From the NCBI RefSeq assembly GCF_005405585.1, contig NZ_BJEQ01000002.1:1-64000 (forward strand): DNA of 64,000 bases, given 5' to 3'. Origin of the DNA: Agarivorans sp. Toyoura001. GTDB lineage: Bacteria > Pseudomonadota > Gammaproteobacteria > Enterobacterales > Celerinatantimonadaceae. Below are positions 166-57,017 of this stretch, piece after piece (position 1 is the first letter of the stretch; each line of letters begins with the position of its first letter). The notes beneath the pieces were generated by a model. It did not search any database. It saw only the letters and a list, made by a program, of their open reading frames with translations, and had not been told where the DNA came from. Position numbers and translations under genes: made by a program.

Positions 166-615
166 TTAATAGGTTTTATAAGGTAAAAACTTACCCGATA
201 ACACGACGTTTACTCGGTCACCATTGGGATTTTCTTCACGCTTAATATCCATAGAAAAATCAATCGCGCTCATAATGCCATCGCCAAACTCTTCGTGAAT
301 AAGTTCTTTAATGGTGCTGCCATACACATTGACCACTTCGTACCAACGATAGATAAGCGGATCGGTTGGCACCGCAGTAGGCAGTGAGCCTTTATAAGGC
401 GCTATTTGTAACCAAGCGATAGCTTCATCAGTTAGCTCGAACATATCGCCGACAGTCTCAGCCTGCGCTTTATCAAAAGTCATTTGCCCTAAACAAGCGG
501 CAGTAGTCCACTCTTTAGACAAGCCAATAGCGGCCGCGACTTCACTCCACTTAATGCCTTTTCTTACCTTGGTTGCCACAATTAGCTGAGTGACGTCTTC
601 TCTACTAGTAATCAT
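166..615 (-). CDS. cynS: Cyanate hydratase (cyanase)
   Basis: A 149-residue protein that aligns throughout with the cyanase family (E. coli CynS is 156 aa). It catalyses bicarbonate-dependent breakdown of cyanate to ammonium and CO2 in the cytoplasm, detoxifying cyanate and supplying nitrogen. The catalytic triad is visible as R90 and E93 (in YRWYEVVNVYG) and S116 (in FGDGIMSAIDF). The N-terminal half is the helical HTH-like domain. It is the last gene of a minus-strand operon with the FNT channel and the PP2C-kinase; 48 bp separate it from the kinase gene. An IS end lies 13 bp past its stop. Confidence 0.95.
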   Translation of the reverse strand: MITSREDVTQLIVATKVRKGIKWSEVAAAIGLSKEWTTAACLGQMTFDKAQAETVGDMFELTDEAIAWLQIAPYKGSLPTAVPTDPLIYRWYEVVNVYGSTIKELIHEEFGDGIMSAIDFSMDIKREENPNGDRVNVVLSGKFLPYKTY

Positions 616-663
616 TTGCGTTTCCTTCCCTTTTCAGTAAATGAAGTCTATTTTCACGACGCG

Positions 664-2385
664 CTAACGGCTTAACAAGTAAACCACTAGCGCAGCCAGA
701 ATGGCTGATATGCCCTGCCATACGGCCACTGGATTTCGCTCCACTAGCGGCGCGCGAGTTTTGTTTAAAAAAGCGTTATTGGGCTGGCGTAAATCACACA
801 AAAACTCGGTAATTTGCTCATACCTCTTAAGGCGATTCACCTGCAACGCTTTTTCTAAAGCATCATCAATCCAAACGGGTATTTCACTGTCTGTGTCGAG
901 TACCGACTGATAAACCAAGCGCCTTTGCGCGGCCTGGCTTTTTGCGCCCGCCACTTTGGTGCCGTACGGGTAGCGCCCACACAGCATGAAATAGGTAATA
1001 ACGGCTAATGAAAACAGCTCGGCACGCGTGCTACCGCACTCACCCAAAAACAGCTCTGGTGCCGAATAAAGTGCAGTGCCGAGTAAATGCTGTTGAGTTA
1101 AATCATGGGTTTGCTCGGCTAAACCTGCCGCCCACACCGAGCCAAAGTCGATAATTTTTATGGTGCCGGTGTTATCTATCATGATGTTGTCGGGTTTAAG
1201 ATCTTGGTGCAGCATATCCATGCGGTGAAAAGTGCGTAGCCCTTTAGCAATTTGCTCAACTATTTCTCTCACCCTGCTTAACTCAGGCTTTGGGTTGTCG
1301 GTTATCCACTGCGCTAGAGTTTGCCCTTCAACATACTCAAATACGGTATACAGGTAATTACGCTCCCGCGGGTCGAGATTGGCTTTTAGTACATAGGCGC
1401 TATTAATGCGGCGAGCTATCCATTCCTCAGTGAGAAAGCGCTCTAAGTATTCAGGGTCATCGCGTAAATCTATTGAGGGGGCTTTTAGTATTACCTGTTG
1501 CCCCGATTGTTCGTCTAAGGCTAAGTAAACATGGCTGCGGCTGCTGGCGTGAAGTTGGCGAACAATGGTGTAGCCATCAAACTGCATTCGCGCTTCTAAC
1601 ATGGGCGGAAAGGGCAGCCTATCTACTTGCTGCTTTAAGTGCTGAGCACTAGCCTTTGCCAATTGGTCAACGCGAATAATCTGTAAGCTTAAATTATCGT
1701 CGCTGCCTGCTTCATAAGCTAACTCTACTATCTTGTTGGCTGCGGCTTCTAATTCATTGGGATACTGTTCAATAGTGCTGTTGACTAGAGCTGCATCAAT
1801 AAACTCATAAACCCCATCGGTGGCTAATAAAAAGATGTCACCTGGTTCTACGCGCAAGCTTTGGTAGTCAAATTCACAATATTCATCTATGCCTAAAGCT
1901 CGACTTAGGTAGCTTTTATTTTCATTCACCCATAGGCGGTGATCTTTAGTGAGTTGCTCTAAACCGTTTTGATTTAAACGGTAAACGCGGGTATCACCCA
2001 CGTGAAAAATGTGTGCGGTATTGCCTTTTATGACTAAGGCACTAAAAGTACAAACGTAACCCTTGTCTTTGTCGTAATGGTAAGGGCTTTGCTGTGACTG
2101 GGAATACAGCCAAGCATTGGTGGCGTCTAATACTTTTTCGGCTGAGTGCTGAACCGACCAAACTTCAGATGTGCAGTAGTAATCGTCAAGAAAGCTTTTC
2201 ACTGCGGTTTCGCTGGCCACTTGGCTCACTTCGCTGCTGCTAATGCCGTCGGCCATCACAGCAGCAAAACCTTTGTGGTTTAACTGCGAGCCTCGCGGAG
2301 TGGATACACCGTAACAGTCTTGATTAATGGCCTTGCGGCCTTTATCAGAACATTGACCAATGGAAACACTCAGCTGGCTCGTCAT
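664..2385 (-). CDS. Bifunctional PP2C phosphatase / Ser-Thr protein kinase, C-terminal membrane anchor
   Basis: This 573-aa protein carries a PP2C-type phosphatase domain (about 1-240) fused to a Hanks-type kinase domain (about 270-540) and a single C-terminal TM helix (about 552-571). PP2C metal-binding aspartates are seen at D46 (MADG), D190 (ATDG) and D229-D230 (GSDDN). Kinase residues are K301, the catalytic loop HQDLKPDN with D395, and D413 of DFG. The glycine-rich loop is degenerate, though the catalytic residues are present. Such fusions are known next to nitrate/nitrite assimilation genes, and here it sits 13 bp downstream of an FNT channel and upstream of cyanase. Regulation of nitrogen uptake is inference; substrates are unknown. 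Confidence 0.9.
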   Translation of the reverse strand: MTSQLSVSIGQCSDKGRKAINQDCYGVSTPRGSQLNHKGFAAVMADGISSSEVSQVASETAVKSFLDDYYCTSEVWSVQHSAEKVLDATNAWLYSQSQQSPYHYDKDKGYVCTFSALVIKGNTAHIFHVGDTRVYRLNQNGLEQLTKDHRLWVNENKSYLSRALGIDEYCEFDYQSLRVEPGDIFLLATDGVYEFIDAALVNSTIEQYPNELEAAANKIVELAYEAGSDDNLSLQIIRVDQLAKASAQHLKQQVDRLPFPPMLEARMQFDGYTIVRQLHASSRSHVYLALDEQSGQQVILKAPSIDLRDDPEYLERFLTEEWIARRINSAYVLKANLDPRERNYLYTVFEYVEGQTLAQWITDNPKPELSRVREIVEQIAKGLRTFHRMDMLHQDLKPDNIMIDNTGTIKIIDFGSVWAAGLAEQTHDLTQQHLLGTALYSAPELFLGECGSTRAELFSLAVITYFMLCGRYPYGTKVAGAKSQAAQRRLVYQSVLDTDSEIPVWIDDALEKALQVNRLKRYEQITEFLCDLRQPNNAFLNKTRAPLVERNPVAVWQGISAILAALVVYLLSR

Positions 2386-12384: not shown

Positions 12385-15207
12385 TTATGGAAGCACTTCA
12401 CACGTAGGTGCTTCAAAGTTGCCACTGTAGCCACCTTGCATACCAAACGAAGTACTCGCATTCGGACCTAAGTTACCGTTATATACTTCATTTACAGCAG
12501 TAAGTCCTAAGCCATCACTAGCTGCTTGATACTTAGCGTTCCAACCGTTTACCAAACTAATCGGTTGAGGGAAGCTTAAATGAACCTTCCACCCGCTTAC
12601 ATCTTCGCCACCAGCATTAGTCACTTTAATATTGCCTAATACAAAGCCGCTATTCCACACGTTAGCTTCACCTACGGTACAAGTAAGCTCAGACTCGCCG
12701 CCAACTGGAGGTTGTTCACCCGCTTTAACGGTTAAGGCTAAAACAGCTTCAGCAGACAACTCTGCCGCTTGCTCATCTGTAGCAATAACCAGTACCACTA
12801 CTTCACCTTCACTCTCAGGCATAGTGATACTTACATTGCCGCTACCTACTCGGCTCGTCACTAAAGCGCCATCAAGGTAAACATTTGCGCCATAAGCGTT
12901 GGCTAAGTCTAAGCGAACTTGTACGTCGCTAGCTGGGCTAACTTCACTGCCATTTGCAGGCGAACTGATCGCCACTGCAGGAACAATAGGCGCCGCTACA
13001 TTCACGGTTACTTTTGCTTCAGTGGAGTTTGCACCTTGGTTATCGGTAGCGAAATAAGTGAAGCTATCAACACCAAACGAACCAGTATTAGGTACATAGT
13101 CCGCTACGCTGCCATTTAAGCTAACAATACCGTTAGCTGGCTGACTCGCGATAGTGAAACTAGTGACTTGACCGTCGGAATCTGTTGCGGTTAATTCAAT
13201 AGATACAGGCGTATCAGAAGCCGTGTTTACACTTTGATTTTGCGCCACAGGTGCACAGTTAATGCCTGTATCTGCGCCACATGCCGCACTTGGCTCAGTT
13301 CCCCACACTAACTCGCCGTTATCGTATAATGCGATTTTACCCGCAAGCTTGTAGGCATTGTTGTAGTTATCCCACGACGGGTCGTTAGCATTATCCCAAT
13401 CGGGGTTGTTGGTATTGGTTGGTAATGATAAACGGAACTGCACTTCCTTTTTAGAGGCCGATTGACCACCAGGGTAAATATCTATGCCATCAAAACTAAT
13501 TTCTGCGTAATAGATGTTATCCGCTTCGTCACCCCAAGCATGTAAACCACTAAAACCGGAACCTTGGCTGTAAGCGGTTGATAACTTTACATCATTTAGC
13601 GAGTAACCCGCCTCAAACACTTCACTCAAATCAACCCAGTAACGATAGCTTAGTTGATCAGTTACGCGAGATGGCCAAGCCGTATGGTTATGTACTCTAG
13701 TCGCTAACTCAATATGGCGTGTACCTTGCGAGTTGATTTTAGCTTCTACAAATAACTCGGTATCACGTTGCTCTTTAGCCGGGAAACTAGCCTCGGCAAT
13801 AGGATCTCCGCCATGGTCGAGCCACAAGCGCGCTAACGCCGAAGTAAAGCCTGCGTTGTAGTCGGTAGCCACTTCGTTTTTAACGTAATCGCCGCGATCA
13901 TCGACCCAAGAATCATCTAACCCAGGGCCGCCCACCAATGCGCCTACCAATAAGTGGCGGTTTTCTACAGGGTCACCCGAATTATCATTCCATGTTCCGT
14001 GAGCGGTGCGGTGATGAGGCTTAGTTGGGTGGTAATCACCGTAGCCAATTTGGTAAGAAATATTTAACGGATTATCTCCCAAAATATAATCTAACTGGCC
14101 TTTAGCAAAGTTATAGTAAATTTCAGCCTTAGCATCTTTATCGGTATTTTCTCTTAAGTAATCTGAGTACACCAAGGCTAAGAACGAGGTATTAGAACTG
14201 TAACGGGCTGCGCCCCATGTATCTAAAAAGGCTAAACCACCGGGCGTATAACGAATTTTTTCACCGTTGTAACCTACCGTCCAGTAATCAAGCCAACGCT
14301 CTGCGTCAGCTTGGTAGCTAGCCTCACCGGTAAGGCTAGCCATTAATACATAAGCGCCGTAAGACTTATCATCCCAGGCTTGGCCCCACTTGTAAGAGCG
14401 TGTATCCGTTTGCGGTTCAGTGCCTAAAGAGCCATATTCCGTTTTAGCTTTATTCAAATAGCTAGCGTCTTCAGTGGCGCGGTACAACCAAATGGCACCC
14501 CACACTAACTCATCTTGATAACCACTCCATGAGTTATAAAACGCTTTGGCATCGGTAATGGCGTCTGAATATTTACCACGGTATTTATCGGCAAATGAAT
14601 ATAGCTCTTTGGCGTGCTCAAGTAGCATTGCTGCATAACTTGGGTCGCTGTCTTTAAACACCATAGAAATAGCGGCTAATGCTGCAGCAGTTTCACCAGC
14701 CAAATCAGAGCCTGGGTTAGCGGAATCAACCTTGTAAGAAGGGCGCTCCATTTGCATTACTTCAGCCGATCCCCACCAAGCGTGGTCTACCGAGCCTTTA
14801 CCTACTTGGCCATAAAGCTCGTTTGGTGCGGTGTGAGCGCTAACAAAGTAGTCTGCCACAAAACGCAGGTTATTTTTGATGTGAGTTAGTTGGTTGGTTT
14901 GCTCGTAAGCTTGCGGATAATCTACTACGCCCCACGCTAACATGGTGGCGGTGGCTGCCATTGGGAAGCCAAATTTAACGTGGTCGCCGGCATCATACCA
15001 GCCGCCAGTTAAATCAACATTGTTGTCAGCGCCGTCTTGTAATGCCGAGTCACCTCGCCACTCATTTCGGTTCCAACTAGGAATTACGCCCGATTGTTGG
15101 GCTTCGTAAAAATAAATAGATTTTTGTAAGGCTTCGCCATAATTTGCGGCTTGCGCCGACATTGCACTGGTAATTACTGCGGTCGCGAGTAAAGTTTTCC
15201 TTAACAT
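12385..15207 (-). CDS. Secreted GH9 endoglucanase with CBM3c, Ig-like domains and CBM2 (copy 1)
   Basis: A 940-aa secreted cellulase. A signal peptide (1-20, ending SAQA) precedes a GH9 catalytic domain (about 21-465). GGWYDAGDHVKFG supplies the catalytic-base aspartates D72/D75, HHRTAHG is the substrate-binding histidine motif, and E445 in NEVATDYNAGF is the general acid. A CBM3c-type module follows (about 480-640), typical of processive 'theme B' GH9 enzymes. Then come a cadherin/Ig-like domain with TDSDG (about 650-740), a second Ig-like domain (about 742-830) and a C-terminal CBM2 (about 840-940). It hydrolyses beta-1,4-glucan outside the cell. It is a near-duplicate of the gene at 17879-20698. 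Confidence 0.95.
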   Translation of the reverse strand: MLRKTLLATAVITSAMSAQAANYGEALQKSIYFYEAQQSGVIPSWNRNEWRGDSALQDGADNNVDLTGGWYDAGDHVKFGFPMAATATMLAWGVVDYPQAYEQTNQLTHIKNNLRFVADYFVSAHTAPNELYGQVGKGSVDHAWWGSAEVMQMERPSYKVDSANPGSDLAGETAAALAAISMVFKDSDPSYAAMLLEHAKELYSFADKYRGKYSDAITDAKAFYNSWSGYQDELVWGAIWLYRATEDASYLNKAKTEYGSLGTEPQTDTRSYKWGQAWDDKSYGAYVLMASLTGEASYQADAERWLDYWTVGYNGEKIRYTPGGLAFLDTWGAARYSSNTSFLALVYSDYLRENTDKDAKAEIYYNFAKGQLDYILGDNPLNISYQIGYGDYHPTKPHHRTAHGTWNDNSGDPVENRHLLVGALVGGPGLDDSWVDDRGDYVKNEVATDYNAGFTSALARLWLDHGGDPIAEASFPAKEQRDTELFVEAKINSQGTRHIELATRVHNHTAWPSRVTDQLSYRYWVDLSEVFEAGYSLNDVKLSTAYSQGSGFSGLHAWGDEADNIYYAEISFDGIDIYPGGQSASKKEVQFRLSLPTNTNNPDWDNANDPSWDNYNNAYKLAGKIALYDNGELVWGTEPSAACGADTGINCAPVAQNQSVNTASDTPVSIELTATDSDGQVTSFTIASQPANGIVSLNGSVADYVPNTGSFGVDSFTYFATDNQGANSTEAKVTVNVAAPIVPAVAISSPANGSEVSPASDVQVRLDLANAYGANVYLDGALVTSRVGSGNVSITMPESEGEVVVLVIATDEQAAELSAEAVLALTVKAGEQPPVGGESELTCTVGEANVWNSGFVLGNIKVTNAGGEDVSGWKVHLSFPQPISLVNGWNAKYQAASDGLGLTAVNEVYNGNLGPNASTSFGMQGGYSGNFEAPTCEVLP

Positions 15208-15653: not shown

Positions 15654-17816
15654 TTAGCGCATAGTACATGTAGGTGCGCCAAAGTTACCTGAATGCCCCC
15701 CTTGCAGACCAAAAGACAGACTGCTACCTGGGGCAATGTCGGTATTATAAGCTTCATTGCTCACTTCAATACTCTGGGCTGTCGCAGTAAATACGCCCCC
15801 CCAACCGCCCACTAAGCTAACCGCACTAGGAAAATCAAGTACTGCCGTCCAACCAGAGATGGTTTCGGTACCCGTATTGCTAACCGTAATGCTGTTAATC
15901 ACAAAACCACTGCCCCATGAATCTGCAGGCCCAACCGTACAACTTAAGTTAGCTGCTGCCGGCTCAACAACATTAAGCGCCACACTGTCTGAAACACTCA
16001 GGTTTTGGCCTTGTTCGTCTTGCGCTGTCACTTTCAAGGTGTAGGCGCCAACTACACTAGGCGCTGTTAGTTCGGCACTGGTGCCAGTAAACGACAGCAC
16101 TTGTCCCGCTAAGTTGGTTTCAAAACCTGCGGCATCTTTAAGGTTCACGCTTACCGCAAAGGTACTAGCAGCTTCTATACGGCTATTGGCATTTGGCGAG
16201 CTTACGCTAATTTCAGGCTGCAACGGTACTTCGTTTAACGCACTGAGCGCAATACTATCGCTCACCGCCATTTCACTACCGGCACTATTTACTGCCACGA
16301 GAGAAACGGTAAAGTCACCTTCAGCGCTTGGCGCGGTTAAGTTCACGCCACCTGAAACCGGCCCGGTTTTCACAAAACTACCATCTAGATAAACGTTCAC
16401 CGATGCCGCTTTGTTCACCGAATAACTTACGCTAAAACTTGAACCAGTTAGCACGATGCTATTTGCGGCAGGTGAGCTAATACTTACCGACGGATTCAAA
16501 CCTTGGTAGTAATCATTCAGGCTAATACCGGTAGCACTGTTAGCGCCCCCTAATGCCACTTCGTGATCCAAGCTAATAAATTTACCTGCATCATTGGCCC
16601 AAAGAGATGGTAGAAATAAGGCGTATTTCTCTTCATCCCAAGTCGTCCAGTCGTGACCGAGTAAGCCACCTGTATCACCCGAGTTAGGATTAATACACCA
16701 GAAGGTGTGGTGTAGTTGGTGTTCGATAATCAAGTCACGAATCGCCACCATCCAGGCCTCATTGGGTCCGCCATCCATAAAGCCGCCCCACTCGCCAATC
16801 AATAGCGGAGATATGCCTTCTTCATGAATAAACATCCAGTTATCTTTCCACACATCTTGATACAAGGTGTCTTTATTAAAGCCTGGGTAAAACCAATCTT
16901 GAGCAAATACTAATGGGCCATAATCATGCGGTGAGTACATAAACTGCTGCTGGCGCGCCCCTAAATCGATAGGGAATTCGCGCACGCCGCGCAAGTTTCC
17001 GCCCCACCAGTTAAAGTGAAAATCGTCTTTGCCTTTGCTTTCCCAGTTTTTACCCTCTACCGGATAGGCTTCAATCCCTTCACACATCACCAACATATTG
17101 GGGTTAATATCTAACACGCGGTTAGACACCACCTCACAAGCATGTTTCCAGTTGTTCTCGTCGGTTGAGTTATCCCATTTAGCAAACTCACCAGCAGCGC
17201 TTTGTTTAGGGTTGCCATGTGGTTCATTTTCTAAATCAAATGCGATAATAGTGTCATCGTTTTTGTAACGCTCAGTCACCCACTCCCAAGTAGAGAAGAA
17301 GTCTTCTGAGGTAATGTCGCCTTTGTACCAAAGTGGCGCGATGTGCCCCATGTTATCCGCTTCAGCGCCGTGCACATCTAGTAGGATTTTCATGCCACTG
17401 GCCTTGGCGGCAGCGATCATTGCATCAAATACTTCTAAGGAAGTGGCCGAGGCTAAATCAGGATTAGCCGAAGCATTCACTTGAATCGCCACAAACTGGC
17501 CATTTTTCCATTCTTTTAGCAGTTCGGTTGAAATCGGCACTCGCAGTAGGTTCACCCCACGCGAGGCGATATCTTGAATAGTATTTTCCAAATTCACCGA
17601 CCACAAACCATGTAATACCCGCTCGGTAGTATTAAAGCCAAACCAATTTGCGCCGGTTAGCCACACGGTATTGCCTTGCATATCTTTAATTTGGTTACCT
17701 TCAACATGTAACCAATCATCTCCCGGTAAGGGAGCGGCCATTAAACTAGTGCTTACCAGCGAAGCAGCGGTAAACCCTAAACATTTAGCGAGAAAGCTTT
17801 TTTTAGTATTCATCAT
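15654..17816 (-). CDS. Secreted GH5 (subfamily 1-like) endoglucanase with two Ig-like domains and CBM2
   Basis: A 720-aa secreted cellulase. A signal peptide (about 1-28) leads into a GH5 TIM barrel (about 30-435) resembling Acidothermus E1, with the shared GxNWFGFxT...HGLWS segment. The acid/base is E198 in FDLENEPHG and the nucleophile E342 in LIGEWGG. Two Ig-like linkers (about 445-530 and 540-620) and a C-terminal CBM2 (about 625-720) follow. It cuts internal beta-1,4-glucan bonds and should act with the flanking GH9 enzymes. Two adjacent ATGs follow GGAG; the first is used. It starts 62 bp after GH9 copy 2, with a terminator between. Confidence 0.93.
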   Translation of the reverse strand: MMNTKKSFLAKCLGFTAASLVSTSLMAAPLPGDDWLHVEGNQIKDMQGNTVWLTGANWFGFNTTERVLHGLWSVNLENTIQDIASRGVNLLRVPISTELLKEWKNGQFVAIQVNASANPDLASATSLEVFDAMIAAAKASGMKILLDVHGAEADNMGHIAPLWYKGDITSEDFFSTWEWVTERYKNDDTIIAFDLENEPHGNPKQSAAGEFAKWDNSTDENNWKHACEVVSNRVLDINPNMLVMCEGIEAYPVEGKNWESKGKDDFHFNWWGGNLRGVREFPIDLGARQQQFMYSPHDYGPLVFAQDWFYPGFNKDTLYQDVWKDNWMFIHEEGISPLLIGEWGGFMDGGPNEAWMVAIRDLIIEHQLHHTFWCINPNSGDTGGLLGHDWTTWDEEKYALFLPSLWANDAGKFISLDHEVALGGANSATGISLNDYYQGLNPSVSISSPAANSIVLTGSSFSVSYSVNKAASVNVYLDGSFVKTGPVSGGVNLTAPSAEGDFTVSLVAVNSAGSEMAVSDSIALSALNEVPLQPEISVSSPNANSRIEAASTFAVSVNLKDAAGFETNLAGQVLSFTGTSAELTAPSVVGAYTLKVTAQDEQGQNLSVSDSVALNVVEPAAANLSCTVGPADSWGSGFVINSITVSNTGTETISGWTAVLDFPSAVSLVGGWGGVFTATAQSIEVSNEAYNTDIAPGSSLSFGLQGGHSGNFGAPTCTMR

Positions 17817-17878: not shown

Positions 17879-20698
17879 TTAAGGTAAAACCACACAAGTT
17901 GGTGCTACAAAGTTGCCTGAATGCTCGCCTTGTAAGCCAAACGAAGCACTAGCACTCGGCGCTAGTTGCCCGTTATGAACCACATTGCTAGCACTAATAC
18001 CTAAGCCATCACTGGCGAGATTTAGCTCTGCATTCCAGCCATTGGCCAAAGATACTGCTTCGCTGAATGCTAGGTTAACTTTCCAACCGGTTACCGCTTC
18101 AGTCCCACCGTTCGTCACCGTGATAGCGTTGATAACAAAACCGGTAGACCATGAGTCAGCTTTACCAACTTCACAAGTAAGGTCTCCAACAGGAGTCACC
18201 GCACCTTGCTTAACCACCAAGCTTAAACTGGCTTCGGCACTTATTTCTGTACCTTGTTCATCAGTGGCAATCACCGCGATGGCAACCGTGCCTTCGGTAT
18301 CCGGCATGGTTAAGGTCACTGCTCCGCTACCGACACGGCTAGTGGCAAGCGTGCCATCTAAGTACACATTGGCTCCATGAGCGTTTGCAACATCGAGCTG
18401 CAAGTTCACATCGCTTGATGGACTCACTTCAGTGCCATTGGTTGGCGAACTAATGGTTACTGCGGGAATGATCGGTGCTGCTACATCTACGGTTACCGTA
18501 GCCGCTTGCGATACTGCTGCTTGATCGTCACTGGCGGTAAAGCTAAAGCTGTCACTACCAAAGTAACCAGCGGTAGGCACGTAACTGGCAACATCACCGC
18601 TTAAGGTGACAGAGCCATGTGCTGGCTGGCTAGCAATGGCATAGCTGGCAATAGTGCCATCGCTATCAGTTGCGGCAAGAGTAATTGAAGCAGGGGTATC
18701 AAACGGTGTAGCCACTGTTTGACTTTGCGCGATTGGCGCACAATTTATACCGGTCGCTCCGCCACACTCAGCACTAGGTTCCGCTCCCCATACCAATAAA
18801 CCTGCGTCGTACATGGCAATTTTAGGTGCAAGTTCATGCGCATTACTGTAGCTATCCCAAGAAGGGTCGTTAGCGTTATCCCAATCAGGATTGTTGGTAT
18901 TGGTTGGCAATGCCAAACGGAACTGCACTTCTTTTTTCGAAGGAGACTGGCCGCCAGGGTAAATATCTACACCATCAAAACTAATCTCGGCGTAGTAAAT
19001 GTTATCGCCTTCATTACCCCATGGGTGTAAACCACTAAAACCAGTACCTTGTGAATATGCCGTGCTTACTGTTACGTCATTTGCGGTATAACCTGCAGCA
19101 ACAACTTCAGTTAAATCAACCCAGTAACGTAGGCTAAGCTTATCGGTAACACGTGATGGCCAAGCAGTATGGTTATGCACACGCGCACTAATTTCTATAT
19201 GGCGCGGCCCTTCGGAGTTAACTTTGGCGTCTATGTAGAGTTCGGTATCGCGTACTTCTTTAGGCGGGAAATCCGCTTCAGCAATCGGTGCACCGCCATG
19301 ATCTAACCACAAGCGGGCCAAGGCTGAAGTAAAGCCAGCGTTGTAATCGGTGGCCACTTCATTTTTGTAGTAATCACCGCGATCGTCTGCGTATGAATCA
19401 TCTTTACCTGGCCCACCCACTAGCGCACCAATCAGTAAGTGACGATTCTCAACGGGATGGCTGGATAAACTGTCTGCCCAAGCACCATGTGCGGTACGGT
19501 GATGCGGCTTAGTCGGGTGGTAAGAACCATAGCCAATTTGGTAAGAAATGTTGAGTGGGTTATCCCCTAAAATGTAATCTAGCTGACTTTTCGCAAAATC
19601 GTAGTAAGTAGCAGCCTTGGTTGGTGCCAATGCATTCGCTTTAAGAAAATCAGAATAGATAAGCGCTAAGAATGAAGTATTAGAAGTGTAACGGGCTGCG
19701 CCCCATACATCTAAAAAGGCTAAGCCGCCTGGTGTGTAGGCAATTTTCTCGCCATTAAAGCCAGTGGTCCAGTAATCCAACCAGCGCTCGGCATCATCTT
19801 GATAGACTTGCTCACCAGTAAGTTTGGCCAACAATACATAAGAGCCATAAGATTTATCATCCCAAGCTTGGCCCCATTTGTAGGCACGGTACTCCGTTTG
19901 ACCTTCGTTACCGAGGTTAGGGTATTCAAGCTTAGCTTTATCCAAATACGCAACATCATTAGTGGCGCGGTATAACCAAATTGCCCCCCACACTAACTCA
20001 TCTTGATAGCCACTCCAGGAGTTGTAAAAGGCTTTAGCGTCGGTAATGGCATCTGAATATTTGCCGCGATAATTGTCAGCAAAACTATAAAGCTGCTTAG
20101 CGTGATCTAACAACGTGGCCGAATATACTGGGTCACTTTCTGCAAATACCATTGAAATGGCGGCCAGCGCTGCAGCGGTTTCACCGGCTAAATCTGAACC
20201 AGGATTGGCTGCATCAATTTTGTAAGAAGGACGCTCCATTTGCATCACTTCTGCAGATCCCCACCAAGCATGGTCGATGCTACCACCGCCCACTTGGCCA
20301 TATAATTCATTAGGTGCGGTATGCGCTTTTAGAAAATAATCGGCCACAAAGCGCAGGTTATTTTTAATATGTTCAAGCTGATTAGTTTGAGAATAGGCTT
20401 CTGGATACTCAATAACCCCCCACGCCAACATGGTCGCAGTAGAGGCCATTGGGAAGCCAAATTTAACGTGGTCACCGGCGTCATACCAACCACCAGTGAG
20501 ATCTACATTGTTATCGCTACCATCATTTAAGGCTGAATCGCCGCGCCATTCGGTACGGTTCCAATCAGGAATGACACCCGATTGCTGAGCTTCGTAAAAG
20601 TAGATGGATTTTTGCAAGGCTTCACCATAATTGGCCGCTTGCGCCGACATTGCACTCGTTACTATCGCCGTGGCGAGAAGTGTTTTCCTTAACATCAT
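17879..20698 (-). CDS. Secreted GH9 endoglucanase with CBM3c, Ig-like domains and CBM2 (copy 2)
   Basis: This is the paralogue of the gene at 12385-15207, with the same architecture: signal peptide, GH9 barrel with WYDAGDH and NEVATDYNAGF catalytic motifs, CBM3c, two Ig-like domains and CBM2. From the ATG at 20696-20698 it encodes 939 aa, matching the 940 aa of copy 1. The open frame extends upstream to 20812, but copy 1 and the start of the signal peptide (MLRKTLLATA) argue against those residues. Differences are spread over the Ig-like and CBM2 regions more than over the catalytic domain. It is probably the first gene of a GH9-GH5 transcript. Confidence 0.94.
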   Translation of the reverse strand: MMLRKTLLATAIVTSAMSAQAANYGEALQKSIYFYEAQQSGVIPDWNRTEWRGDSALNDGSDNNVDLTGGWYDAGDHVKFGFPMASTATMLAWGVIEYPEAYSQTNQLEHIKNNLRFVADYFLKAHTAPNELYGQVGGGSIDHAWWGSAEVMQMERPSYKIDAANPGSDLAGETAAALAAISMVFAESDPVYSATLLDHAKQLYSFADNYRGKYSDAITDAKAFYNSWSGYQDELVWGAIWLYRATNDVAYLDKAKLEYPNLGNEGQTEYRAYKWGQAWDDKSYGSYVLLAKLTGEQVYQDDAERWLDYWTTGFNGEKIAYTPGGLAFLDVWGAARYTSNTSFLALIYSDFLKANALAPTKAATYYDFAKSQLDYILGDNPLNISYQIGYGSYHPTKPHHRTAHGAWADSLSSHPVENRHLLIGALVGGPGKDDSYADDRGDYYKNEVATDYNAGFTSALARLWLDHGGAPIAEADFPPKEVRDTELYIDAKVNSEGPRHIEISARVHNHTAWPSRVTDKLSLRYWVDLTEVVAAGYTANDVTVSTAYSQGTGFSGLHPWGNEGDNIYYAEISFDGVDIYPGGQSPSKKEVQFRLALPTNTNNPDWDNANDPSWDSYSNAHELAPKIAMYDAGLLVWGAEPSAECGGATGINCAPIAQSQTVATPFDTPASITLAATDSDGTIASYAIASQPAHGSVTLSGDVASYVPTAGYFGSDSFSFTASDDQAAVSQAATVTVDVAAPIIPAVTISSPTNGTEVSPSSDVNLQLDVANAHGANVYLDGTLATSRVGSGAVTLTMPDTEGTVAIAVIATDEQGTEISAEASLSLVVKQGAVTPVGDLTCEVGKADSWSTGFVINAITVTNGGTEAVTGWKVNLAFSEAVSLANGWNAELNLASDGLGISASNVVHNGQLAPSASASFGLQGEHSGNFVAPTCVVLP

Positions 20699-20740
20699 GT
20701 CTTGTCTCTCTTTGTTTGCAAAATTAGCTATTTTCTTCCT

Positions 20741-20767
20741 CGCCATCTTTGTAGCGGTAGAAAGTAC
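20741..20767 (-). promoter_or_regulatory. Conserved upstream element of GH9 copy 2
   Basis: Plus-strand GTAGCGGTAGAAAGTAC, preceded by GCCATCTTT, matches the block at 15251-15278. It lies 43-69 bp before the chosen start, the same spacing as in copy 1, and supports the shorter start at 20698 because it would otherwise fall inside coding sequence. Confidence 0.5.
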
Positions 20768-21102
20768 ACTGGCGTATTTACCAATTACAAACAGAGAACT
20801 TGACCATGCCATGCTAACTCGTGGCGGTTCTCATTAGGCCATACACCTTTTTGGTAAACCTTCTATTGAGGTTTGACTCATTTAAGAAACTAGCAAGCCC
20901 GTTTAAGTTCTCAAGGCGATTATTGACAAACTTGAAACCAATCAAGAAAAATATTTTAATGATGAAACTAACAGGAAACTTTGAGAGCGTTTTCATAAGA
21001 AAAACTGCTCAAGGTCGCTAATAGGATCTGCTAAGACCAGCGACCTTTTACCGATAAAATAGCTAATTGTGCTTGAAAGTGAGGCTTTCAAGCATAATCA
21101 AA
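20768..21102. other. Intergenic region with two hairpins
   Basis: There is no supportable gene here; short open frames on both strands lack ribosome-binding sites. AAGGTCGCT (21011) pairs with AGCGACCTT (21039) around a 19-nt loop and is followed by TTA. TGCTTGAAAG and CTTTCAAGCA (21068-21094) form a 10-bp stem just after the SemiSWEET-like gene and may end its transcript. Confidence 0.5.
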
Positions 21103-22774: not shown

Positions 22775-22996
22775 TTAATGACCACCACCGCAACTCATGT
22801 TTTGCCACATATAAAGCTGCTCTGCAGTTAAACCGGATTTTTTAGTCGAATCGGAAGACTGCTGAATAGACGCCAGTAAATCGTCATCTGTAGCGCCGGC
22901 TTGTTCTATGTTTGTTGGTGCAGAACTAACGATAGGTTGATTAGAACAAGCGACTAAATAAACAGCCGCAAATAATACCGATATGGTTTTCATCAC
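22775..22996 (-). CDS. Small predicted lipoprotein
   Basis: A 73-aa protein with a lipoprotein signal (VLFAAVYLVAC, lipobox cysteine about residue 17). It has a short Ser/Thr/Asp-rich body and ends in CGGGH, a potential metal-binding tail. A second ATG one codon downstream is equally possible as start. Function unknown. It shows the composition of an envelope-anchored small protein. Confidence 0.6.
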   Translation of the reverse strand: MMKTISVLFAAVYLVACSNQPIVSSAPTNIEQAGATDDDLLASIQQSSDSTKKSGLTAEQLYMWQNMSCGGGH

Positions 22997-23238: not shown

Positions 23239-23514
23239 ATGAGTAAAACAGACATACATGCGGTGATACAAAGCTTTACCTGTATGGAAGAAGCGCTGCG
23301 CTATTTTGAGATTGATTTTGATAATGGCTTTATCGACGAATATCGAGAACTGCTCACTAAACGCTTTGGTGGTAACTTGATCATGAGCAAAGCCAATGAT
23401 TGGTTCTCTGCGCGTCGCGCATTAAAAAATGCCTACTGCAAAACCCAACGAGAACGTTTAGACAAACACACTCGCTCGGCCTGCCGAGGTTGTACGTCTT
23501 GCGAGCGACGCTAA
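23239..23514 (+). CDS. NifW-like small protein (no nif genes nearby)
   Basis: A 91-aa protein whose core (EEALRYFEIDFDNGFIDEY and the following RELLTKRF, then ARRALKNAY) resembles the NifW nitrogenase-protective family pattern of an acidic helix, a Y/F-D turn, an R-x-x-L-x-x-RF helix and a late ALxxAY helix. Unusually it ends in a cysteine cluster, CRGCTSC, that may bind metal. NifW normally accompanies nitrogenase, and none is seen here, so the role must differ if the homology is real. ATG follows AGAGGCG. Confidence 0.45.
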   Translation: MSKTDIHAVIQSFTCMEEALRYFEIDFDNGFIDEYRELLTKRFGGNLIMSKANDWFSARRALKNAYCKTQRERLDKHTRSACRGCTSCERR

Positions 23515-23535: not shown

Positions 23536-23685
23536 TTATTGCCCCACCCAAGAACCATTTACGCATTTATAGCTACCAATGGTCGCCCCTTCCGGGTAAA
23601 CATTGCCGCCATGCACGCAATCGGCAATGCTTGGCAAACTAAGAGCAAGCCCAATAATAGCCACTAACATCGGTAATTTTTTCAT
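23536..23685 (-). CDS. Very small exported protein with C-NGSW motif
   Basis: A 49-aa protein with a signal peptide (about 1-21) and a 28-residue mature part with two cysteines. Its pattern C-x3-G-x2-Y-x-EGA-x2-G-x3-C-x-NGS-[WF] is shared exactly with the gene directly upstream, so the two are paralogous domains. The start ATG (23683-23685) overlaps the upstream stop as ATGA and is preceded by AGGAG, indicating translational coupling. The two cysteines probably form a disulfide after export. Function unknown. Confidence 0.75.
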   Translation of the reverse strand: MKKLPMLVAIIGLALSLPSIADCVHGGNVYPEGATIGSYKCVNGSWVGQ

Positions 23686-23951
23686 TGCTCTGCTCCTAAA
23701 GCATGCTGCTCACTGTTGTCTGTTTGTGGTGTTAATGATGCGCTTACATGGATGCCATTTCGGCTTACCAAATCACCCTCACCATTAGGCGTAGTTGTAC
23801 TTCGGCTGGCTTTATCCGCCGATGTAAAACTTCCATTTAGGCAAACTAAATTACCTAATTTCGCACCTTCATCGTAAATATCTCCCTGTAAGGTACAGTT
23901 AGCATTTACCGATACACTGAAAGGCAAAAGACAAATCAACCATTTGTTCAT
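23682..23951 (-). CDS. Small exported protein, paralogue of the following gene
   Basis: An 89-aa protein starting at the ATG 23949-23951, which overlaps the stop of the upstream gene as ATGA. A signal peptide (about 1-17) precedes the same two-cysteine module as its neighbour (CTLQG...CLNGSF). A low-complexity Ser/Thr/Asn tail follows. Codon use and position show that it belongs to a three-gene coupled operon. Periplasmic or outer-surface location is inferred; function unknown. Confidence 0.7.
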   Translation of the reverse strand: MNKWLICLLPFSVSVNANCTLQGDIYDEGAKLGNLVCLNGSFTSADKASRSTTTPNGEGDLVSRNGIHVSASLTPQTDNSEQHALGAEQ

Positions 23952-24970
23952 TTTTCGCACCATCGTTTAAGTTTTGCTTCCCACGCTTTTTTCCAACTGT
24001 GCTCTAGCGCTACCTTTTTAGCCTGCTCTCTATAATCTTTTCTGCGTTGTACTAAATCCGCTTTCGCCACAGAGTCGAGCACGAGTAAATGTTCTAAATC
24101 GACTAATCGCTTAAACTGTTCCGTATCCTTTTGGCTCATGTATTGCCGCAAATCATCATCGATCACCGAACCATAAAGCGTATTCGTTTTAAATAGCATT
24201 TCAGACAATTGACCTAACTCAACTTGCCTCTGCGCCTTTAACTCATTCACAGTTAAAGACTCAGCTTGTGAGTTAGATTTATTGATACGTAAACCGCTTA
24301 GATTAGAAAATATAAAACTTGATCGTGAAAAGGTATCAGCACGCTCGTCTTTAGTACCAGACAACTCAATAGATACATCTTTGAAGTTACCCCAATACGC
24401 TCGCGCGCCATGAAACAGACTTTGACTAAAGTTAACGTTTCGAAAATTCACGTAACTAGACTCTGGCATATCAAACGCCACTTTAGCCAAATAGCTGTTT
24501 TCCAGATTGACGCAATACAACGTGGTTGTTTGAAAAGTAATGTCTTTAAGCTCTACTCCACTTAAATCTTTACCCGCCAACGAAAGCGACTTTTTACTCA
24601 CAAAGCTGCGTGTAGTGTCGAACAAATACGTTAGCTCGTTACTTGCTAAAAACTGAATAACTTGGGCAACCAAAGAAGGGTAATTTAAACTTTCAAACAG
24701 CAGTTGAGAGCGAGAGACTATAAAACGTTCTAAGCGCGCCTCATCAGTATTAGATAAAACAATGGCATCACTCACAGCCGATACAAAATAAGCAACATTC
24801 GCCACCTGCGCAGCACGCTTTTGTTCATCTAGTTGTCTAGTGAAATTGTCAGCTGAACTCTTAAGCGATACGTACGCTAAAACAACCGCAATGATAGTGG
24901 CAGCAGAACTCAATACACCATGGTGTGATGATACCCAATCCCATGCTTTCTTAAGCCAGATAATTAACAT
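23948..24970 (-). CDS. Membrane-anchored protein with pentapeptide-like repeats
   Basis: A 340-aa protein with one N-terminal TM helix (about 19-38). A helical region follows (40-130), then a stretch with A/S-x-L/F-x-N-type fivefold periodicity (about 130-235, e.g. NLENSYLAKVAF and VNFRNVNFSQSLFHGA) typical of a pentapeptide right-handed helix. The C-terminal tail is charged and helical. The bulk is probably cytoplasmic. It is first in an operon with two small exported proteins, both coupled by 4-nt overlaps. I recognise no named family beyond pentapeptide-type repeats. Confidence 0.7.
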   Translation of the reverse strand: MLIIWLKKAWDWVSSHHGVLSSAATIIAVVLAYVSLKSSADNFTRQLDEQKRAAQVANVAYFVSAVSDAIVLSNTDEARLERFIVSRSQLLFESLNYPSLVAQVIQFLASNELTYLFDTTRSFVSKKSLSLAGKDLSGVELKDITFQTTTLYCVNLENSYLAKVAFDMPESSYVNFRNVNFSQSLFHGARAYWGNFKDVSIELSGTKDERADTFSRSSFIFSNLSGLRINKSNSQAESLTVNELKAQRQVELGQLSEMLFKTNTLYGSVIDDDLRQYMSQKDTEQFKRLVDLEHLLVLDSVAKADLVQRRKDYREQAKKVALEHSWKKAWEAKLKRWCEK

Positions 24971-53082: not shown

Positions 53083-53445
53083 TTATTGATTGATTAATAA
53101 CGAGTCAGCATCAATCGAAATCTGTTTCCATTCTTTATCTACTTCACCAACGATGGTAATTATTGTTTCTGGGGTCACTGTTTGCCCCTGAAATAAATGA
53201 TTGTCAATTTCAACTTGAATCTCACCTGTTTCATCTTTAAACAGGTAATTTTCATCTCCTTGCGTCGAAACAATATGGCCCGTGATTGAAACCAAGGTTT
53301 CGTCTTGTGCATCTTGAACTTGTAAAACTGTTAATTGGGGAGCAGAACTAGGGCCTTTAAATCCACCTTGTTGAATAGGTAAAATGGCTGCAAAGCTAAT
53401 GCTAGAAAACATAACAAGTGGTAATACACATAATTTCTTAAACAT
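53083..53445 (-). CDS. YgiW-like periplasmic OB-fold (BOF) protein, copy 1
   Basis: A 120-aa exported protein with a signal peptide (about 1-19) and the bacterial OB-fold pattern QGGF-x-GP, VSITGHIV, YLFKDETGEIQVEID and VTIVGEVDKEW. YgiW/VisP-type proteins act in envelope stress resistance. It is highly similar to the copy at 55656-56018, with a QseBC-like system between. A direct-repeat box lies 100-116 bp upstream. It is followed by the broken coiled-coil gene. Confidence 0.85.
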   Translation of the reverse strand: MFKKLCVLPLVMFSSISFAAILPIQQGGFKGPSSAPQLTVLQVQDAQDETLVSITGHIVSTQGDENYLFKDETGEIQVEIDNHLFQGQTVTPETIITIVGEVDKEWKQISIDADSLLINQ

Positions 53446-55655: not shown

Positions 55656-56018
55656 TTATAAATTAATTGTTAATGCATCTACATCCACTGAACTATCGCT
55701 CCAATCATTATCGACTTCACCAACAATTGTCACTAACATTTCAGGCGTTACAGTCTGGTTTTTAAATACATGGTTATCAATTTCAACTAGGATACGGCCA
55801 GTTTTATCTTCAAACCAGTAATCGTCTCCACCATTTGAAAGTACAATATGACCAGTTAAAGAAACAGTCGTATCATCTTTTACTTCTAACGCTTGTTTAA
55901 CTGACAATTCAACATCTGTATTTGGTCCTGAAAAACCACCTTGTTGTGCAGATTCATAATTAGCAAAACTAAGGCTAGAAAATACAATAAGAGGTAACAC
56001 GATTAACTTTTTAAACAT
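55656..56018 (-). CDS. YgiW-like periplasmic OB-fold (BOF) protein, copy 2
   Basis: A 120-aa exported protein, paralogue of copy 1, with the same signal peptide start (MFKKL-x-VLPL) and OB-fold blocks QQGGFSGP, VSLTGHIV, GRILVEIDNHVF and VTIVGEVDNDW. It heads the likely transcript YgiW-regulator-kinase. The direct-repeat box is 105-121 bp upstream, and an IS3-family element is inserted about 30 bp beyond that box. Confidence 0.85.
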   Translation of the reverse strand: MFKKLIVLPLIVFSSLSFANYESAQQGGFSGPNTDVELSVKQALEVKDDTTVSLTGHIVLSNGGDDYWFEDKTGRILVEIDNHVFKNQTVTPEMLVTIVGEVDNDWSDSSVDVDALTINL

Positions 56019-56171: not shown

Positions 56172-57017
56172 CTAGACGCTAGTTAGCCTTCTTTCATATT
56201 GCTTTTCATACTCTACAGGCGACAGTTGATTATTGGAACCATGTCTTCGATTCACGTTGTAGAACATTCCGATATACTCGAAGATATCAGTTCGAGCATC
56301 CTCTCTCGCTGAGTAGATCTTTCGCTTAACTCTTTCTCTTTTTAAGAGTTGGAAAAAGCTTTCTGCGACAGCATTATCATGGCAATTCCCACGACGACTC
56401 ATACTTCCTTCCAATCCATGTTGCTTTAAAAAGGAACTCCAGTCATGGCTTGTATATTGGCTACCCTGGTCTGAATGCACTAGCACATTGTATATCGGAG
56501 AGCGCCGCCAGATCGCCATCAGAAGAGCGTCTAATGCGAGCTCTTTGGTCATTCTGCTCTTCATGGACCAACCGAGCACCCTGCGTGAATATAAGTTTAC
56601 GACCACAGCAAGATAGAGCCAACCCTCATGAGTTTTGATGTAAGTAATATCGGTTACCCAAGATTGATTTGGAGCTTGTGGATCGAAGTTTCTATCCAGT
56701 TTGTTTGGGGTAACAATGTCCTCAGCCCCCGATCTGGCTCTTGGCTTTCGGTATCCTCTTTGGGATTGCAGTCCTTCTCGTTTCATCAAATGATGAACTT
56801 GATTGATACCACAAGTTTCGCCCTCATCTCGCAAGTCACAATGTATCTTTCGATACCCATAAACACAGCCAGATTCGAGCCAAAACTGCTTAATTAGTCC
56901 GAGAAGATACTTACGTCGCCTTTCTTGTTTGCATTCTGGATGCTTCAACCATGCGTAAAAACCACTTGGATGGACGTCAAGCACGCTGCACATTCGTCGT
57001 ACAGCCCAGATAGGCAT
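56172..57017 (-). CDS. IS3-family transposase OrfB (DDE integrase core)
   Basis: A 281-aa frame with the retroviral-type catalytic core: first D in SWVTDITYI, second D in VHSDQGSQYTS, and E in NAVAESFFQLLKRE, then the terminal NVNRRHGSNNQLSPVEYE. It is normally made as a fusion with OrfA by -1 frameshifting; the frame is open upstream through the OrfA end. It looks intact. Confidence 0.93.
   Translation of the reverse strand: MPIWAVRRMCSVLDVHPSGFYAWLKHPECKQERRRKYLLGLIKQFWLESGCVYGYRKIHCDLRDEGETCGINQVHHLMKREGLQSQRGYRKPRARSGAEDIVTPNKLDRNFDPQAPNQSWVTDITYIKTHEGWLYLAVVVNLYSRRVLGWSMKSRMTKELALDALLMAIWRRSPIYNVLVHSDQGSQYTSHDWSSFLKQHGLEGSMSRRGNCHDNAVAESFFQLLKRERVKRKIYSAREDARTDIFEYIGMFYNVNRRHGSNNQLSPVEYEKQYERRLTSV

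Follow-up and report, generated by a model that had tools for sequence, protein, structure and literature searches.

According to PMC8404706, MgrB is a 47-aa protein with two conserved periplasmic cysteines that acts on a membrane protein, the sensor kinase PhoQ. Its transmembrane (TM) helix is left uncleaved and participates in the binding, its activity is affected by the periplasmic redox state via the two cysteines, and C28, C39, G37 and W47 are among the six periplasmic residues described there as important (PMC8404706). MgrB, taken as an analogy only, shows that regulation of a membrane protein by a microprotein with two cysteines is possible. The two small proteins encoded by the locus of Agarivorans sp. 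Toyoura001 described here share with MgrB a conserved pair of cysteines and differ from it in carrying a cleavable-looking signal peptide, whereas MgrB is an uncleaved TM protein.

Two other groups of described proteins were compared with the locus. Animal vWC, E and fibronectin F1 modules contain several disulfides each; they gave the best, weak matches of the predicted module in Foldseek and VIA-align, and the module differs from them in having only two cysteines and no Pfam match. For pentapeptide repeat proteins, the profile of the 340-aa product of the locus gave E 1e-4 with designed beta-solenoids, which we take to be pentapeptide-based, while its matches to natural pentapeptide structures were no better than E 0.036. 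The 340-aa protein differs from this group in its short repeat stretch, N-terminal anchor and long non-repeat flanks, and in being encoded together with exported-looking microproteins.

Layout and inheritance of the trio

Within the window, by which the whole analysed stretch of 64,000 nucleotides is meant, the locus had the following features:

23948–24970, minus strand: gene 1, 340-aa N-terminally anchored pentapeptide-type protein
23948–23951, minus strand: ATGA overlap of the gene 1 stop and the gene 2 start
23682–23951, minus strand: gene 2, 89-aa exported-looking protein with signal peptide, module, linker and RNGIHV tail motif
23826–23897, minus strand: module of gene 2 (residues 19–42), 24 residues
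23745–23762, minus strand: RNGIHV motif of gene 2 (residues 64–69), identical in 4/4 genus homologues
23682–23685, minus strand: ATGA overlap of the gene 2 stop and the gene 3 start
23536–23685, minus strand: gene 3, 49-aa exported-looking protein with signal peptide and predicted 28-aa mature part
23548–23619, minus strand: module of gene 3 (residues 23–46), invariant in the 4 trio-bearing genomes

The gene set is real, and the ATGA-coupled minus-strand operon of three genes (340, 89 and 49 aa) described in the sequence-only reading was confirmed at its coordinates. An AGGAG-type ribosome-binding site was read from the sequence inside gene 2, directly ahead of the overlap at 23682–23685. The signal peptides were placed by eye at approximately 17 aa for gene 2 and 21 aa for gene 3, and the predicted cleavage of the 49-aa product before D22 would leave 28 mature residues. 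An RNA element was considered and rejected, as no Rfam family reached the gathering threshold within the 64-kb window. Promoter-like and terminator-like sites around the trio occurred at chance level.

The trio was found to co-occur in other genomes, a point that the sequence-only reading had proposed for checking: it was present as a whole in four of the seven genus genomes (own genome included) and wholly absent in the other three. The homologues of the 340-aa protein in the three other trio-bearing genomes were 76, 53 and 52% identical, and no homologue was found in the other 53 of 60 genomes searched. All four trio genomes showed the same gene order, flanked by a solute-binding-protein gene and a gene encoding a 91-aa protein. 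In two genomes without the trio (G003 and G004) approximately 230–270 nt separated these flanking genes, a span that held no more than a putative 76-aa frame (G004), while a different small frame of 65 aa occupied the trio's place in G006. Since the flanks are kept where the trio is missing, the trio looks to have been gained or lost as one unit. At the first junction, three of the four genomes had an ATGA overlap and one had an overlap of 1 nt; at the second, two had ATGA and the other two a gap of 2 nt. Tight linkage is conserved in the genus and the exact overlap geometry is not. The fixed stoichiometry that had been read from the ATGA coupling was therefore not upheld, because the overlaps vary between species and coupling does not set stoichiometry.

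Several neighbouring genes of the window were also recorded. The flanking 91-aa gene (23239–23514, plus strand; tail ACRGCTSCERR) is convergent with the trio, was present in 7/7 genus genomes and had no credible Pfam family. A small lipoprotein-like gene ending in CGGGH was located at 22775–22990 (minus strand), with similar genes in the equivalent place in L002, L003 and L004. Two very similar long secreted-looking proteins were encoded around a third (12385–15207, 15654–17816 and 17879–20812, minus strand), which gives the look of a cellulase cluster that includes a duplication. A pair of similar exported-looking proteins of 120 aa (53083–53445 and 55656–56018, minus strand) was seen by eye around an apparent two-component system, and a transposase-like gene (56172–57017) adjoins this cluster, also by eye.

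The two-cysteine module and its relatives

The pattern C-x3-G-x2-Y-x-EGA-x2-G-x3-C-x-NGS-[WF], which had been reported as common to both small proteins, matched exactly in each. A looser regular expression run over six frames of the 64-kb window matched only the gene 2 and gene 3 modules. Across the genus the identity between the two proteins was partly lost, as NGS of the pattern was replaced by NGE, NGN or DGN in three 89-aa homologues. In gene 3, the 27-residue stretch starting with D before the first cysteine showed 12, 12 and 16 synonymous changes and not one non-synonymous change in three species comparisons, and dN of the signal peptide was 0.46–0.52. The gene 2 module, with dN 0.13–0.19, was less constrained than that of gene 3 and retained the pattern core together with RNGIHV. 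Both modules are under purifying selection. For the 340-aa protein, dN between species was 0.18–0.41.

Neither the 89-aa and 49-aa products nor a set of 15 module sequences had a convincing family in Pfam, NCBIfam or PHROGs, and no vWC, E or fibronectin F1 family was among the Pfam matches of the 15. Alignment of the 15 modules produced the pattern [DNEG]-C-x3-G-x2-[YH]-x2-G-x7-C-x2-3-G-x-[WF], with the last G missing in L070 and exactly two cysteines per module in 15/15. In the alignment the hydrophobic N-terminus, taken as a signal peptide, ended in alanine right before D/N/E/G-C. AlphaFold2, run from three sequences, gave a mature module of four strands with pLDDT of approximately 90 and a low-confidence signal peptide. 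The best Foldseek matches of the predicted module were mucin/von Willebrand D-assembly, vWC and fibronectin F1 modules, all weak (E 0.58 or worse, TMq up to 0.57). VIA-align gave Z of at most 3.5, with rmsd of 1.0–1.6 Å over 30–33 residues for the cleanest rows and up to 9 for others. On this prediction, the vWC/fibronectin F1 resemblance is weakly indicated and would be a lead on shape, not on kinship. The BFVD viral structures produced nothing credible, and solved structures produced nothing credible for the 89-aa protein, the module or the partner proteins of class A, class B and L048 described below.

Profile searches detected the module in ten further genomes at E 6.7e-8 to 1.4e-16. The relatives outside the genus are single-module proteins of 45–52 aa. 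Matches were G168 (Vibrio sp. PID17_43) among 345 genomes of the order, G521, G619 and G395 among 369 genomes of the class, and G766 and G803 (the latter from another class) among 249 genomes of the phylum. Besides G766, 135 genomes of its order yielded G970, G991, G1030 and G958, and a second run over 274 genomes of this order returned the same five. Only G619 matched among 8 genomes of its order, and only G803 among 48 genomes of its class, apart from one weak row that was dropped. A scan of genome contigs found nothing with the 89-aa protein and, with the module alignment, only Vibrio sp. PID17_43, the same record as G168 and counted once. With so few matches in broad genome searches, the module family is sparse; besides other Gammaproteobacteria, it was seen in a single further class.

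Weaker rows were dropped before loci were counted. These were G008 (E 0.476), which on inspection was no small exported frame; ten rows of the order search (E 0.0129–0.094), of which L015, L018 and L019 were inspected and the other seven were not; thirteen rows of the class search (E 0.0021–0.0494) whose loci were not inspected; and G780 (E 0.002 in the phylum search, 8.5e-4 in that of the class of G803), where a 32-aa frame lacked the module. The 11 loci counted below comprise the genus, counted once, and the ten loci outside it. In the genomes searched the module does not occur widely as unlinked single genes, the outcome that the sequence-only reading had named as telling against it: it is sparse outside the genus, and nine of the ten loci there adjoin an anchored-protein gene (one by homology). 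What that reading missed is the wider module family with other membrane partners. An origin from a mobile element was considered and rejected, as gene 1 had no match in plasmids or viral contigs and the module had no credible match in plasmids, phages or viral contigs. No paper on this module or trio was recognised among open-licence papers available in part, which is weak evidence.

Membrane-anchored partner proteins

The description of the 340-aa product as a pentapeptide-type membrane protein was borne out by a PF00805 score above the Pfam cut-off (24.8 against 20.2 bits) and by one N-terminal hydrophobic segment. Its genus homologues scored 21.9, 34.8 and 36.2 bits with PF00805, and Pentapeptide_4 scored 28.7 for the 340-aa protein, under its Pfam cut-off of 38. 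The pentapeptide matches fell within residues 130–199 (approximately 24374–24583), the sole hydrophobic segment comprises residues 18–36 (approximately 24863–24919), and the protein has two cysteines, C153 and C338. Its profile matched in 16/320 other genomes of the class at E 4.3e-7 to 9.9e-4, in almost every case through the pentapeptide stretch alone. Structure prediction of the protein alone was uninformative (pLDDT 37.9).

In nine of the 11 loci the module gene either overlaps the gene of an N-terminally anchored protein or follows it within 24 nt. These nine are the locus of the window's genus, L014, L046, L048, L064 (where the two genes overlap by 4 nt), L069, L070, L071 and L072, the partner in the last being cut by the contig end and its anchor predicted from 56% identity to L048. 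In L047 the module lies 90 nt before an anchored-protein gene. In L065 the module is solitary, adjoining a thioesterase-type gene on one side and what we take to be a ruvB-like gene on the other. As a yardstick, 6/55 genes of the window had an anchored-type upstream neighbour within 50 nt, a count that comes from this one 64-kb window and includes signal-peptide proteins. Against this background the 9/11 adjacency gave a rough binomial value of approximately 1e-7, which is overstated since the loci are non-independent (class A counted three times, class B three and class C two); this test and the cysteine test below were framed after the data had been seen. Ten outer neighbours at nine loci were compared by Pfam: eight had families, none of them common to two loci, and two had none. 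In L071 (G1030), a gene at 414–1460 (minus strand) that encodes a Tle1-like phospholipase effector catalytic domain (PF09994) follows 37 nt after the module gene.

Comparison of the partner proteins showed that class A (L014, L069 and L071) is one family, with 39% identity between L069 and L071 and 27% between L014 and L071. Class B includes L046 and L064 (33% identical), to which L070 is weakly related (BLAST E 0.002 over 37 residues; hhalign E 4.4e-4), and class C consists of L048 and L072. Classes A and B were weakly related by hhalign (E 1.1e-4, probability 57%) and may have a common middle domain; with BLAST alone, L014 and L064 stayed unconnected. Class C, the L047 partner and the pentapeptide protein had no detectable relation to classes A and B or to one another. 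By sequence comparison the partners form four groups without detectable mutual relation. Tests for shared ancestry among the partners showed relatedness only within A, within B (weakly for L070), within C and weakly between A and B. The scanned partners outside the genus had no credible Pfam family, and no kinase domain was found by Pfam in 13 partner sequences, that of L072 being scanned only as a fragment. A defence system was also tried and rejected: PADLOC with nine partner proteins and the 89-aa protein gave a best E of 0.017, none credible.

Exactly two cysteines were counted beyond the first hydrophobic segment in 12/12 partner sequences from 9 loci, the N-termini of L002 and L064 having been trimmed. 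In the part of the L072 partner that is visible, a loop carries two cysteines that L048 lacks there; this fragment was left uncounted. A loose yardstick was provided by 11/42 window proteins of at least 150 aa having exactly two cysteines in all, a count over whole proteins that is not quite alike to the partner count. A domain that faces the envelope and carries one disulfide would be expected to have such a pair, which was noticed post hoc. Flanking charges favoured an N-in anchor in six of the 12 partner sequences, were tied in three and opposed it in three, among them the window's own 340-aa protein.

Proposed role and alternative explanations

We put it at an even chance that the microproteins are exported, disulfide-stapled companions of the adjoining membrane-anchored protein, duplicated in this genus. 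Each would be made with a Sec-type signal peptide and cleaved right ahead of the D/N/E-C with which the module begins. Once outside the cytoplasm, the mature module would fold into a small unit of two hairpins, probably held together by a single disulfide that links the two invariant cysteines. Its most likely role would be that of a dedicated small subunit or regulatory ligand, binding to the envelope-facing domain of the anchored protein, which here would be the pentapeptide-type protein and in other lineages other anchored proteins. In the order of duplication events that we infer, the microprotein gene was duplicated in the genus, one copy presumably staying minimal and invariant and the other gaining a linker and the RNGIHV tail.

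That the microproteins act alone in the envelope, for example by binding the cell wall or a surface polymer, with the membrane gene merely co-transcribed, is unlikely. The solitary module of L065 and the sequence-unrelated nature of the four partner groups would fit such action. Many pentapeptide proteins are cytoplasmic, so the large domain of the 340-aa protein may also lie on the cytoplasmic side and have no contact with the microproteins. However, an anchored-protein gene adjoins the module gene in 10/11 loci (one by homology) as compared with 6/55 for the upstream-side background, and the trio looks to have been gained or lost as a unit. A redox-type regulator, in which the microprotein would bind its membrane partner in the manner of MgrB and have its activity set by oxidation of the periplasmic cysteines, agrees with the two invariant cysteines of the module, the conserved glycines between them and the W/F near the C-terminal end. 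The comparison is strained by the cleavable-looking signal peptide of the module proteins where MgrB keeps its TM segment, by a cysteine spacing of 18 as against 11 in the MgrB numbering, and by the missing histidine kinase domain in every partner scanned with Pfam (L072 as a fragment), and this reading is quite unlikely.

We regard as very unlikely a secreted peptide signal or bacteriocin, in which the cell would release the peptide of 28 residues and the anchored protein would serve as its receptor or immunity protein. A small exported-looking two-cysteine peptide adjoining a membrane protein, its patchy presence, and the L071 module gene 37 nt before a Tle1-like hydrolase gene are consistent with it. 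Toxin-immunity pairs diversify together, whereas the gene 3 module is invariant between species while its partner diverges. Moreover, no dedicated exporter gene was seen by eye beside the trio, and the plasmid, phage and viral-contig collections held no credible copy of the module.

Beyond the companion role of the two microproteins, a broader reading can be offered tentatively, at somewhat less than even odds: that these are undescribed one-disulfide, vWC/F1-like bacterial microproteins which form an exchangeable companion recruited by unrelated anchored proteins and duplicated here beside a pentapeptide-type partner. Genes under 50 codons such as gene 3 are easily overlooked. Were bacteria to have an animal-like vWC/F1 hairpin with a single disulfide, this would raise a small question, open to testing, on the origin of such modules. 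Should the adjacency rule hold, one exported partner would be common to several anchored membrane proteins that are so far unnamed, and a function found in one lineage would become testable in the others.
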